Made by a program: the position numbers and the translations under genes. Positions 49,581 through 53,516 of a stretch of 64,000 bases of DNA are shown here, piece by piece. The stretch is from Aristolochia californica. Taxonomy: Eukaryota; Streptophyta; Magnoliopsida; Piperales; Aristolochiaceae. How positions within the stretch are numbered: position 1 is the first letter of the stretch; each line of letters opens with the position of its first letter. The notes under the pieces are model-generated. The model worked only from the letters and a program-made list of their open reading frames with translations, had not been told where the DNA came from and searched no databases. Location: positions 33,028,294 to 33,092,293 of the forward strand of contig JARWKL010000004.1 of the NCBI GenBank assembly GCA_029961685.1. Direction: 5' to 3'.

Positions 49581-49930
49581 TGTTATGGATTCATTAGGGG
49601 TTTATTTGCAATTTCTATTCATTTGGGGTTTATTTGCAATTTCTATTCATTAGGGGTTTAATTGTAATTTGTTGAACATTAGGGGTTTATTTGTAATTTG
49701 TAGAACTTATGGCCTTTGGCATGTTTTCACTAATTCCCTATATAAGGGCGTAAGATGAATGAGAAGGTAAGCATTGAATTAATTAGTTGTAGTCAGTTTA
49801 GATTCTCCCTCAGAGGTCTAGGTCGGATTCTCCCTTTGAGGTCCAAGGTCGAGCCTCCTTCAAGGCTCAATCCCTTCCTCCCCACGCTGGAAGAATTTGT
49901 CCGGTGGTTGATCCGAAATGGGTAGTAACA
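49581..49930 (+). repeat. E5 5' LTR
   Basis: It starts TGTTATGGATTCATTAGGGG and ends GGTAGTAACA. An internal run has GGGGTTTATTTGCAATTTCT and related units repeated about four times (49595-49700). Confidence 0.97.
49737..49748 (+). promoter_or_regulatory. TATA box in the E5 5' LTR
   Basis: CCTATATAAGGG is the best TATA-like sequence in the LTR. It is conserved in the 3' LTR (about 53323), in the E6 copy (about 63527-63538, reversed) and in E4. It would drive the genomic RNA containing the chimeric ORF. Confidence 0.65.
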
Positions 49931-50286
49931 CCTTGGTATCAGAGCGGACCAACCGTGGCGATTCTTTTTCCTGGGAGGATTTGCGTCTACAATTGGTGGG
50001 ACAGCATTCAGTTACGGAGAAACAGCAGCAGGCCATGGAGGAAATCAAGACGAACATGTACGCCTTGAAGGAGATGTTACAGCGGATCAAAGGCTACTGG
50101 ATGAGGAAATGGGTTGTGGTCAAACGCCACCGGGCAGTTCCACTCTTCTGGCCGAGCACCACCGTTTCCCCCCCGTCACGATGGGCCACGAGGACCCATG
50201 TTTGGCGATGCATAGACAAGTCCGTGAAATGGCTGCAGATGGCTTTGCAGTGGAAGAGATACAGAAATGGCGTGATGCATGGGTGA
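49918..50286 (+). CDS. E5 short gag-like frame in the leader
   Basis: A 122-codon frame starts at the LTR/primer-site boundary: MGSNTLVSERTNRGDSFSWE, then KQQQAMEEIKTNMYALKEML. It mirrors the gag start of G3 and the E4 leader. It overlaps the start of the 972-codon frame in a different phase. It might be the remnant of Gag translation initiation; no knuckle or capsid core is present. Confidence 0.35.
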   Translation: MGSNTLVSERTNRGDSFSWEDLRLQLVGQHSVTEKQQQAMEEIKTNMYALKEMLQRIKGYWMRKWVVVKRHRAVPLFWPSTTVSPPSRWATRTHVWRCIDKSVKWLQMALQWKRYRNGVMHG

Positions 50287-53027
50287 AGTATTGGCTAACA
50301 ACAGAGTATCGAGAGGCCTTCGCCGGAGAAGTTATCACCGATGGGAAATCGGGTGACCAGGTTACCACTTTGTCCCGTCGAGCACCCGAAGCCTCTGCAG
50401 AGGATTTGGGGTCATTATCAGATGGGCAGAGAGGCTTTGCGTCACGACAAATTAAAATTTCCGCACACAAAATTTCAAAGCCGAACAAAGACGACGAGTT
50501 GGGAAAATCAGAGAGGTTTTCGGCTACGACATCGTTGGCGTTGGTTAGATCGGGGGAGACCTTAAATCTGGAAGCACACCAAAATGAGTCATGGCGAGCC
50601 GATCACCATCCCGATCTGCCAAAGGAATATATTCTGGCGCCTATTTCGACCCAGACATCAGACGGCGGCAACCCCAAATTGTGCACATCGGAAGGGTTTT
50701 TCCCCTCCCCTGTCTCCCAAGAAGCCATACATCTTCCACCGATGAAGAAAACCACGACACTGGCTGAACTGGAACTTTATGGGGCACAAATTCCGCCGGA
50801 ACGGGCCAACGAGCGGCTGCCATATTCACCACATCAGCGCAGGTTTGCCTTTCGCCACCGGACACGGATGAGGCTCCGTCGGCGCCATCGGAAACAAATC
50901 CGGTGGGCTTTGGCTTCCGGATTCTCATCCTCAGCCTCACCCTTGCCCTCAGAAGCACAGCGGGGAACCATATCCAACGAAATTTGGGGTAAGATTTTGA
51001 AGCGCCATCTATTTTATGTTAAAATCCGTGGTTCCCTGCGGTTGAAGGGCCTCCAAGGTGCTGAGCAGCAGCAACGCTGCTCGAAAACTGAGAACGAAAG
51101 CTCTCTGTTTCGAGAAGCCACGAACCAGAGCCCAACTGCGGGAATTTCGGCTTGGGTCTATGCCAGTCGAGATCAAATTTTTGGGGTGCTAGAATCTGTA
51201 AAACTAATTTTCTGGGAACGTTGGGAAATTTTTTTTTGGTGGGTTTGTTTTTCTGTGGATGCGTACAGTAACTGTGCGAAGGTGAATTGTCAAATTGCAG
51301 AGGGGCGGTTTCCTTTTCTGGATTCCAGGGAGATAAAATTCGTTTGGGTAATCAATTTGAAGCTCAAACTTGGACGGAAGGTCTTTGTTTCCAAGACTAA
51401 GGCTTTTGGTGTTCCACCTAACTATGAATTGCATAAAACTATTGTTGGAATTTCGGCTTGGCTTGGTTGTTCTGTTGCTGTACACAGCACCAGTGAGTCT
51501 ATTCGTTGTCCACTTGAGAATGGGAAGCTTTTTAATTTTTCAATTGAGGAGACCAGTGTGCAGGTTCCGTATTTCTTTGTGCTTTATGTGATGCTGAAAC
51601 TTTTTTGGGGAAGGGTATATTTAGTTGTTGATGAGCACAGTGGCATGGGTAAAGTTTCAACACATGATATTCTCTATGCTCAGCTAATCATCGATGGACA
51701 GGAGCATGGAGTGAATGGTTTTCTTGTGCAATCCTCCCTTCCAGGTAGTACTATTTGTGATATGGGAATGCAATTTGGATATGGAGCGTCCAATACCTTG
51801 GATAATGGTATCCTACGGCTTGATCATATGCGAATACCAAGGGATCAGATGTTGATGTGTGTTTTGCAAGCCACACAAGCAGGGCAGAGTGTTCAAGCAC
51901 ATGTTCTAAAGCAGCTTATTTATGGGAACCACAGTGGTGATATTCAATTTTCTGTCCAGCATGACCAGCAACTGGAGTGTGGTGGTGGCTACCTGCAGCT
52001 CCTCCCCTTTTATAGTTGTCCAGAAGGTGGTTTGGTAGGAACAATCTACTGGGAGTGTCTATTGGGAGTGGAGATAATGCCACTTTTCTTCCTGTGGATG
52101 CATGCAGATAATGCTAAAACTGTCATCCTGGTTCTTGAACGAGTTTCCATTATAGAGCTAACATGGATCATGCAGAATCAATATGTTGAACGTTTGGGGG
52201 ACGAATCTTTACCAGTTTGCAAGTGGCTCGAAGGAGTGCAGTTCCAGGGGGCTGGTTTTAGCCATGGTGCAGCAAGTGAGCTTGGAAGCATTCCTGCACA
52301 GGCAAGGACGAGGAAAATTGTGAAACTTCTAGGTCGTCACAGTGGGTTTATAGCTATGAATGCTACTTTGGCAAACCGACATGTGGATTGTTGCTTAAAT
52401 CCAGAGTCTCCATTTTACTTAGAAGGGGAAGGTGGACTTTCTGAATTTGCCGAGCAGCGAATTAAAGAAAATGGGCATATTGTCATTGAATTAACAGAAA
52501 GTTCTGGGCAGGAGTATGTTGCTCACAGCATGAGTCATATGGATACAAAAGATGCATCAGGGACTTGTTTACTCCTTGATGTTGGCCTCTGGCTGTCTCA
52601 AAAAGTCAAGGATCATTTCTCAAAAAGTCAGAAGACAACAATAAACCTGCAGTATATTGATCCAACTTACATGATCCGTGTAATTCTTACTAATGCATCA
52701 GACAACATCTACTTTACTCTTCTTGCCCATAGTGTTGTTCATGGAGCCATAACCGGATATCCTGGCCAGATGGTGATTGGCATGGATGTCGCTGCATCTG
52801 AGTTCTCTGACCATGCGGATACGTCATATGATTTGAAATTCAAAGTGGCAAACCATGAGAGCTCCCAGAAAATTTCAGGAAACAACTTAAAGACTGCCTA
52901 CAAGTCTTTTGTGGCCTACTACCCACTTGGGTCTATTGCGGATCGAATTGCTAAGGCTGTGTGGGAACATTACAACAAGCTAACGAAGGAGATTAGGGAG
53001 CAAGTTCAGAGGATGATACTGACATAA
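50109..53027 (+). CDS. Chimeric ORF: leader + acyl-CoA oxidase + calreticulin + phosphofructokinase + enolase pieces
   Basis: A single 972-codon frame without stops. Residues 1 to about 340 come from the element leader (MHRQVREMAADGFAVEEIQK; RRRHRKQIRWALASGF, as in E3). About 340-512 is unrecognised. Residues 513-606 match peroxisomal acyl-CoA oxidase (THDILYAQLIIDGQEHGVNG, LDHMRIPRDQMLM). Residues 611-632 match calreticulin (IQFSVQHDQQLECGGGYLQL). About 633-733 is unrecognised. Residues 735-882 match plant ATP-phosphofructokinase (RKIVKLLGRHSGFIAMNATL, LNPESPFYLEGEGGL, NLQYIDPTYMIRVI). Residues 883-961 match enolase (GQMVIGMDVAASEF, QKISGNNLKTAYKSFVAYYP, WEHYNKLTKE). All pieces are in sense, in frame and without introns. 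Each lacks key catalytic parts (no PFK GGDGT loop), so no enzyme activity is expected. Whether the protein is made is unknown. Confidence 0.85.
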   Translation: MGCGQTPPGSSTLLAEHHRFPPVTMGHEDPCLAMHRQVREMAADGFAVEEIQKWRDAWVKYWLTTEYREAFAGEVITDGKSGDQVTTLSRRAPEASAEDLGSLSDGQRGFASRQIKISAHKISKPNKDDELGKSERFSATTSLALVRSGETLNLEAHQNESWRADHHPDLPKEYILAPISTQTSDGGNPKLCTSEGFFPSPVSQEAIHLPPMKKTTTLAELELYGAQIPPERANERLPYSPHQRRFAFRHRTRMRLRRRHRKQIRWALASGFSSSASPLPSEAQRGTISNEIWGKILKRHLFYVKIRGSLRLKGLQGAEQQQRCSKTENESSLFREATNQSPTAGISAWVYASRDQIFGVLESVKLIFWERWEIFFWWVCFSVDAYSNCAKVNCQIAEGRFPFLDSREIKFVWVINLKLKLGRKVFVSKTKAFGVPPNYELHKTIVGISAWLGCSVAVHSTSESIRCPLENGKLFNFSIEETSVQVPYFFVLYVMLKLFWGRVYLVVDEHSGMGKVSTHDILYAQLIIDGQEHGVNGFLVQSSLPGSTICDMGMQFGYGASNTLDNGILRLDHMRIPRDQMLMCVLQATQAGQSVQAHVLKQLIYGNHSGDIQFSVQHDQQLECGGGYLQLLPFYSCPEGGLVGTIYWECLLGVEIMPLFFLWMHADNAKTVILVLERVSIIELTWIMQNQYVERLGDESLPVCKWLEGVQFQGAGFSHGAASELGSIPAQARTRKIVKLLGRHSGFIAMNATLANRHVDCCLNPESPFYLEGEGGLSEFAEQRIKENGHIVIELTESSGQEYVAHSMSHMDTKDASGTCLLLDVGLWLSQKVKDHFSKSQKTTINLQYIDPTYMIRVILTNASDNIYFTLLAHSVVHGAITGYPGQMVIGMDVAASEFSDHADTSYDLKFKVANHESSQKISGNNLKTAYKSFVAYYPLGSIADRIAKAVWEHYNKLTKEIREQVQRMILT

Positions 53028-53052
53028 GCGAGAATTGCAGCGAGGAAGTTAC

Positions 53053-53073
53053 CAAAAAAAAAAAAAAAAAAAA
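53053..53073 (+). repeat. Poly(A) run after the chimeric ORF
   Basis: A run of about 20 A follows GTTACC, 26 bases after the stop codon. It is also present in the copy at the right edge (about 63785-63804, as T). It could be the fossil poly(A) tail of a captured mRNA or a chance A-tract. Confidence 0.8.
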
Positions 53074-53166
53074 TTTTGCTCCTCTGCTAGGTTGCTCTAT
53101 TTTTTGTACGAACAGGCAATTCTACATTGAGCTTGAGGACAAGCTCGTTCTCCAGGAGGGGAGTAA

Positions 53167-53516
53167 TGTTATGGATTCATTAGGGGTTTATTTGCAATTT
53201 CTATTCATTTGGGGTTTATTTGCAATTTCTATTCATTAGGGATTTAATTGTAATTTGTTGAACATTAGGGGTTTATTTGTAATTTGTAGAACTTATGGCC
53301 TTTGGCATGTTTTCACTAATTCCCTATATAAGGGCGTAAGATGAATGAGAAGGTAAGCATTGAATTAATTAGTTGTAGTCAGTTTAGATTCTCCCTCAGA
53401 GGTCTAGGTCGAATTCTCCCTTTGAGGTCCAAGGTCGTGCCTCCTTCAAGGCTCAATCCCTTCCTCCCCACGCTGGAAGAATTTGTCCGGTGGTTGATCC
53501 GAAATGGGTAGTAACA
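53167..53516 (+). repeat. E5 3' LTR
   Basis: The three differences from the 5' LTR are G to A in the third TTAGGGG unit (near 53242), G to A in GGTCGGATTC, and A to T in GGTCGAGCC. Confidence 0.97.

Follow-up and report, generated by a model that had tools for sequence, protein, structure and literature searches.

The window analyzed here is a 64,000-nucleotide stretch of the Aristolochia californica genome (GenBank assembly GCA_029961685.1, contig JARWKL010000004.1, positions 33,028,294 to 33,092,293 of the forward strand), and its own numbering is used throughout. It contains a long terminal repeat (LTR) element whose open reading frame (ORF) carries pieces of four host genes, acyl-CoA oxidase (ACX), calreticulin, phosphofructokinase (PFK), and enolase, all on the same (sense) strand, in one reading frame, and without interruption. 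The original prediction, made from the letters alone, had described a young LTR element with four donors joined in a single frame, and these points were confirmed: the two LTRs differ at 3 positions, an exact CGCGA lies on both sides, and one ORF of 972 codons spans 50109-53027. The element has the following features.

49576-49580, no strand: left target site duplication, CGCGA, identical to 53517-53521
49581-53516, plus strand: whole LTR element, 3.9 kb
49581-49930, plus strand: 5' LTR of the A type, with TG..CA ends and TATATAAG at 49739
49931-50176, plus strand: A-family leader, matched at the DNA level by 17 of the 20 A-type loci retrieved
49933-49945, plus strand: sequence resembling a primer-binding site (PBS), TTGGTATCAGAGC, 2 bases past the 5' LTR, found by sequence inspection
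50109-53027, plus strand: ORF of 972 codons
50177-53011, plus strand: body common to the X-type elements L033-L038, which have other LTRs, at 97-98% identity
50865-50906, plus strand: arginine-rich stretch RMRLRRRHRKQIRW, with similar stretches seen by eye in other family members
51639-51932, plus strand: ACX piece, residues 511-608, E=4.9e-29, region of tomato ACX1A residues 196-300
51942-52010, plus strand: calreticulin remnant, longer in L024-L026 and L044
52314-52742, plus strand: PFK piece, residues 737-889, E=6.9e-18, Pfam PFK 163-275
52752-53009, plus strand: enolase piece, residues 882-967, Pfam E=2.6e-18, Enolase_C 93-178
53054-53073, plus strand: A20 tract at the junction of the cargo and the A-type 3' end
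53074-53166, plus strand: 3' terminal segment common to A-type copies, including the purine-rich tract AGGAGGGGAG at 53154-53163
53167-53516, plus strand: 3' LTR, pairing with the 5' LTR
53517-53521, no strand: right target site duplication, CGCGA, identical to the left copy

Each LTR is 350 bp long (3 mismatches in a 352-column alignment), starts with TGTTATGG, and ends with GTAACA. At 1.3e-8 substitutions per site per year, the rate for rice, which we assume to apply here, these differences would place the insertion at about 0.3 million years ago. The PBS-like sequence is presumably of the tRNA-iMet type, and the purine-rich tract, which on inspection resembles a polypurine tract (PPT), precedes the 3' LTR. 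A Pfam scan of the 972-codon ORF with E values up to 1, the short leader frame lying outside the scan, found no reverse transcriptase or integrase domain. The LTR pair with TG..CA ends, the 5-bp target duplication, the PBS, the PPT, the lack of these enzyme domains in the long ORF, and an end shared with a Ty3/gypsy relative (described below) mark a non-autonomous LTR retroelement derived from Ty3/gypsy. Two other identities were rejected. Terminal-repeat retrotransposons in miniature (TRIM) are very short and lack coding capacity, and large retrotransposon derivatives (LARD) have a long conserved non-coding core, whereas this element measures 3.9 kb and has a 972-codon frame. A processed pseudogene, made as a retrocopy by a long interspersed nuclear element (LINE), is the copy of one gene with its own poly(A) and without LTRs, whereas here LTRs, a target duplication, and several donors are present.

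The ACX, PFK, and enolase matches are far above chance. Calreticulin is weak in the window copy (profile positions 47-100; Pfam E=0.041, best 0.0011 in a PDB search) and clear in the sibling element L044 (E=2.2e-6). By searching the host assembly (660 Mb, 521 contigs), where copy counts are lower bounds whenever a limited number of candidates was scored, we compared the pieces with candidate donor genes. With the tomato ACX piece as query, all 86 candidates were scored and 83 matches obtained; about 60 of these, by row count, are uninterrupted, and 2 are exon-split host genes. Aligned to the element, the host ACX exons at C478:2596600-2598800 form three blocks; both intervening introns are missing from the element, and the three ACX blocks of L044 adjoin within 5 nt. 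The enolase search gave 109 matches (124 scored). A split near profile position 125 interrupts the host enolase loci at C438:2.46 Mb and C478:34.15 Mb, and the window piece is unbroken there; in those at C489:40.20 Mb and C511:33.05 Mb (the latter verified in sequence) the split is near 204-209, a position that X-type copies cross unbroken. Thus, the ACX and enolase pieces have lost introns.

The calreticulin search scored 111 of 161 candidates and gave 111 matches; the block beside ACX covers about 46-142 and spans the host split near 119; L044 crosses that split, and the window remnant ends short of it. The PFK search gave 67 matches (83 scored). Profile positions 2-275 are present at C221:17806371 and C489:29945535, and the window copy retains only 163-275. 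At C489:40.59 Mb, two host-like loci each contain the PFK domain within one frame, of 553 and 518 codons; because the two PFK blocks at each locus have the same frame length, they more probably belong to one frame than to separate exons. No PFK intron loss is therefore claimed, and the predicted absence of introns stands for ACX and enolase, and for calreticulin by way of L044. The single-frame PFK loci are neighbors (C489:40.588-40.592 Mb) and are perhaps tandem host genes. Other segments of enolase (2-70, 151-220) and calreticulin/calnexin (108-369, 186-294, 13-136) recur often in the genome, frequently in long frames, and may represent further captures of these mRNAs.

The A-type LTR and leader matched the genome at 42 places (40 scored out of 2,813 first-look candidates), a number that includes some 3' LTRs and second pieces of a single element. 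Twenty A-type regions were retrieved. Three of these (L009, L010, and L012) contain the window body. Another three (L024-L026) have the ACX-calreticulin part in common with the window copy, a different front, and an enolase remnant at the end (E=7.5e-4 in L025), preceded by a short PFK remnant seen by eye. Among the other 14, four were scanned, all four gave PPR matches, and the remainder resemble them by DNA. L011 combines PPR, beta-xylosidase (1.2e-10), and reductase (2.7e-10) pieces in one 691-codon frame, with a weak methyltransferase match (1.2e-4, under the Pfam cut-off). A search with the body DNA revealed six further full copies, L033-L038, with different LTRs (about 428 bp, TGTTATGCACGC...), in which the ATG of the ORF comes immediately after the primer-binding site. 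L033, L035, L037, and L038 have repeated, tandem-repeat-like DNA on both flanks.

The genomic copy count that had been proposed as a check thus places the same body in at least 10 copies across two LTR types. Nine other genomic places carry it at 97-99% identity, which makes an assembly error an unlikely explanation of the fusion. A DNA match to the A family also lies within the body, in an 84-bp block (50654-50737) distinct from the arginine-rich stretch. The leader's gag-like N-terminal frame (LVSERTNRGDS..., 49918-50286) starts within the LTR end; in this copy it does not share the register of the 972-codon frame, and the X-type ORF starts at the ATG at 50181 in window coordinates, which corrects the proposed in-frame joining of element leader to cargo. 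Judged by its sequence, the window copy is an A-type element with an X-type body.

The cargo also varies among the copies. L039 and L040 lack ACX-calreticulin, L041 and L044 lack PFK-enolase, the ACX block is longer in L045, and PFK-enolase copies without an ACX match exist, such as C221:17806371 (PFK 2-275, 691-codon frame). L044 combines ACX, calreticulin, and, at its end, MINDY-3 in a 958-codon frame; L046, a second copy of this type, is 99.83% identical to it (5 differences in 2,874). Three more places have the same score and frame length, which, together with that identity, suggests a very recent burst. Across the family members, eight or nine donor gene families are represented (methyltransferase only weakly). 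According to these comparisons, the window copy appears to combine two older chimeric lineages, one with PFK-enolase and one with ACX-calreticulin, under the LTRs of another family, and does not look like four fresh captures. In the simplest history, the two lineages would have merged first (as in L042, X-type), and the merged body would then have moved to A-type ends. The serial template switching of the original prediction would accordingly survive as switching, while serial capture by this element is improbable, since the two lineages exist separately.

At the 5' join, near 50177, A-type leader gives way to the start of the X-type ORF, and the two have at most a few bases in common. The 3' join coincides with an oligo(A) tract, about 8 to 27 A long, beyond which the same cargo end continues into an A-type or an X-type 3' end, depending on the family; aligned PPR-type members have different cargo upstream of the tract and the same A-type end downstream. 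Oligo(A) in the template would allow the nascent oligo(T) end to pair with the poly(A) of another packaged RNA, and the tract may be a favored switch point. It could be argued that the fusion arose at the DNA level, by ectopic recombination, nested insertion, or gene conversion, as nested insertions do occur in the window and the few shared bases at the single 5' junction examined would suit such an origin. However, the ACX and enolase pieces lack introns, all four pieces are in sense, and an LTR pair with a 5-bp duplication bounds 8 of the 10 copies with the window body; we regard a DNA-level origin as highly improbable, and template switching during reverse transcription is most likely the joining step.

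For the tree test, 19 copies were aligned to the window frame over three regions, represented by 15, 17, and 13 copies, trees were built, and codon changes were assigned to terminal (private) or inherited branches; L045 was outside this test. In the coding frame, nonsense changes made up 23/425 of the terminal changes versus 0/305 of the inherited ones (P=3.8e-6). The five control frames had inherited stops in 9/298, 12/293, 13/296, 15/300, and 11/302 changes (P=0.053, 0.3, 0.6, 0.62, and 0.092, respectively); at the control rate, about 12 inherited stops would be expected in the coding frame, and none was seen (P=2.6e-5 against the pooled controls). Without L044 and L046, which had been chosen for their open frames, the contrast was 23/409 versus 0/212 (P=6.7e-5), with control P values of 0.18, 0.058, 0.54, 1, and 0.034. 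By region, the front gave 11/247 versus 0/159 (P=0.0044) and the ACX region 8/89 versus 0/105 (P=0.0016).

Indels and larger segments behaved similarly with respect to phase. Seventeen copies contained 36 distinct stops or frameshifts, 33 of them confined to a single copy; the other three each recur in a second copy, which is not the sister of the first on the trees, and are best read as repeated mutations, and 5 of the 17 copies had no lesion. Shared indels were multiples of three in 4/4 cases, including a 207-nt calreticulin block, versus 3/17 private ones (P=0.0058). Large differences in segment length between variants were multiples of three in 28/34 comparisons, or 13/18 distinct sizes (P=8.5e-4), and four of the five phase-breaking sizes lie within 1-2 nt of a phase-keeping one; this test used 58 of the 79 body-search rows, the others being the 10 full copies plus 11 rows of single blocks, off-strand matches, or second pieces.

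These data bear on the alternative that the element is a neutral young chimera with passive cargo, open only because the exons were open at capture. The youth of the LTRs (8 of 10 near copies have a clean pair, with 2-10 differences) and the pooled pN/pS values of 1.2 and 2.9 in two cargo regions of the near set agree with it. The 0/305 inherited nonsense changes, set against about 12, and the segment changes that keep phase do not, and this improbable alternative is already disfavored. Likewise, the window ORF and L044, a pair picked for openness, differ by 231 substitutions over 525 codons without a stop, where 8.3 stops would be expected without selection, so little time for decay, as had been suggested, fails as the sole cause.

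The amino acid sequence behaved differently from the frame. The missense:silent ratio was 2.79 on terminal and 2.91 on inherited branches, and because these are about equal, inherited changes show no depletion of amino acid replacements. The inherited and private counts were 109:50 versus 164:72 in the front and 80:25 versus 62:19 in the ACX region, and the inherited ratio was higher in PFK-enolase (38:3 versus 70:15). Among the copies sampled, all ancestors with descendant copies carried an open frame, while their amino acids drifted. The frame of propagating copies stayed open, and their sequence was without clear conservation; the part of the original prediction that proposed some constraint on the ORF is thus supported for openness and not clearly for amino acids.

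Several observations weigh against this interpretation. The PFK-enolase region alone gave 4/89 versus 0/41 (P=0.31), and the ten near copies alone gave 10/189 versus 0/33 (P=0.37), a comparison with no power. Four of the ten control-frame tests leaned in the same direction at P<0.1 (0.053 and 0.092 with all copies, 0.058 and 0.034 without L044 and L046). In the 14 PPR-carrying copies, the coding frame gave 31/678 versus 1/163 (P=0.012), and two control frames were low too (P=0.003 and 0.03). Trees of mosaic elements are approximate, 6 of the 34 segment differences break phase, and L044 has no oligo(A) tract. Moreover, the ratio of nonsynonymous to synonymous substitution rates (dN/dS), another check that had been proposed, was 0.62 between the window and L044 and 0.51 over ORF nucleotides 72-462 (0.96 and 0.82 in the wrong frames). 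The front of the ORF may therefore be under weak amino acid constraint or have a protein role, although a protein function is not clearly supported by these values.

Such values are what would be expected, in places, if the ORF encoded a gag-like or novel chimeric protein needed by the element or the plant and its sequence were under selection. Long frames in many copies (e.g., 958-1116 codons) fit this idea, and so does an annotated 583-residue "uncharacterized protein [Aristolochia californica]", which is identical over 583/583 residues to the L038 copy. However, the missense:silent ratios described above are about the same on inherited and terminal branches in the front and ACX regions and higher on inherited ones in PFK-enolase, the donor pieces of the window copy are partial domains, and ORF ends differ among lineages, so that no common tail is kept; we consider a needed protein unlikely. 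The annotated protein (P0001) corresponds to L038 1173-2921, a broken element copy, and is a pitfall of annotation. The protein search that found this A. californica protein showed no second species with the fusion among the best 120 of 135 matches (7,993 candidates scored); the other 119 of these were PFK domain matches with 15-16% query cover.

We therefore favor, with a probability of roughly 60%, the explanation that this is a recent non-autonomous LTR retroelement whose frame was joined by template switching, and whose propagating copies are kept free of stops, without clear amino acid conservation, probably by shielding from nonsense-mediated decay (NMD). Packaged RNAs would switch templates, first with spliced host mRNAs and later between sister elements. 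Translation over the full length would then shield the element RNA from decay, and sense, in-frame host exons would serve as ready-made stop-free filler. With random DNA or exons in another frame, the ORF would end early and the copy would not propagate. Plant NMD targets RNAs with long untranslated 3' ends; because the stop lies near the 3' LTR (139-265 nt upstream of it in four open copies), NMD is probably the filter, judging from the position of the stops. A requirement of ribosome passage for packaging is a less likely filter. A wider and more tentative proposal is that the whole lineage is under "open-frame selection": any body may serve provided that it lacks stops over nearly the whole distance between the 5' end and the 3' LTR, so that in-frame host exons would be taken and swapped between families, and the lineage would act as a natural exon-shuffling machine driven by NMD evasion.

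Gene capture by retroelements is usually seen as accidental, with decay to follow, and chimeras of several genes are considered rare. Here, a single plant genome contains several families of such chimeras with blocks in common, and open-frame selection can be told from protein selection by a simple tree test. If this holds, it would offer a general reason for captured exons being sense and in frame, the role of RNA surveillance in transposon evolution would become directly testable, and long open frames or annotated "genes" in such elements need not imply protein function.

Pack-type DNA transposons and Helitrons lack LTRs, capture at the DNA level, and usually keep introns. They likewise repeatedly acquire and amplify gene pieces (PMC13317346, PMC2774510). 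The closest known case is maize Bs1, described in a 2026 review as an LTR element with three donor genes that, like the present one, has pieces of several host genes in a chimeric gene (PMC13317346). Pieces of several spliced host genes between LTRs, which characterize Bs1, are found here too, with four donors and splicing seen for ACX and enolase. As Bs1 is described there, the present system differs in its donor genes, in several families that exchange cargo blocks drawn from eight or nine donor families, in two LTR types over one body, and in the nonsense changes missing from inherited branches. BARE-2 and Veju are given in the same review as template-switch products, in which switching between packaged RNAs likewise brought new sequence into the LTR or body (PMC13317346); BARE-2 took sequence from another retroelement and Veju unknown sequence, whereas here multi-gene host cargo lies under different LTR families. 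The maize B73 survey (Baucom et al. 2009, PMC2774510) lists 425 gene-carrying LTR elements and at least 189 captures, likewise intact elements with host gene fragments, and reports none that combines pieces of two or more standard nuclear genes. The present element holds four, and other multi-gene sets occur beside it. A rice and sorghum survey (PMC3726574) discusses captured genes and pseudogenes, with mostly non-purifying selection in rice. In the literature searched, outside which most subscription papers lie, we found no report of this element family or of selection for openness alone in LTR elements.

The element is inserted inside a second non-autonomous element, and a Ty3/gypsy relative lies upstream of both.

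43216-48466 (limits approximate), plus strand: Ty3/gypsy relative with gag, protease, reverse transcriptase, RNase H, and integrase pieces in separate frames
48507-55854 (limits approximate), plus strand: second non-autonomous element with an LTR-like pair (96%) and a PPR gene fragment at 53657-54301

The 3' segment of the Ty3/gypsy relative from GAGCTTGAGGACAAGCTC to the PPT (integrase end and PPT) is nearly identical to the last part of the element's 3' segment, while the stretch of LTR end, PBS, and leader shows no more than a loose similarity (61% and 79% relative to a common reference). Because the 3' end matches closely and the leader start loosely, it is plausible that a relative of this kind supplies the enzymes in trans. 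A further LTR-like repeat pair (40712-41011 and 56168-56467, 93%) encloses the nested elements, and frames near 41 kb look by eye like X-type leaders. At the end of the window, 63343-64000 holds the 3' LTR and the 3' part of L010 (C329:33091636-33095569), an inverted sibling about 10 kb away whose cargo is 98% identical.

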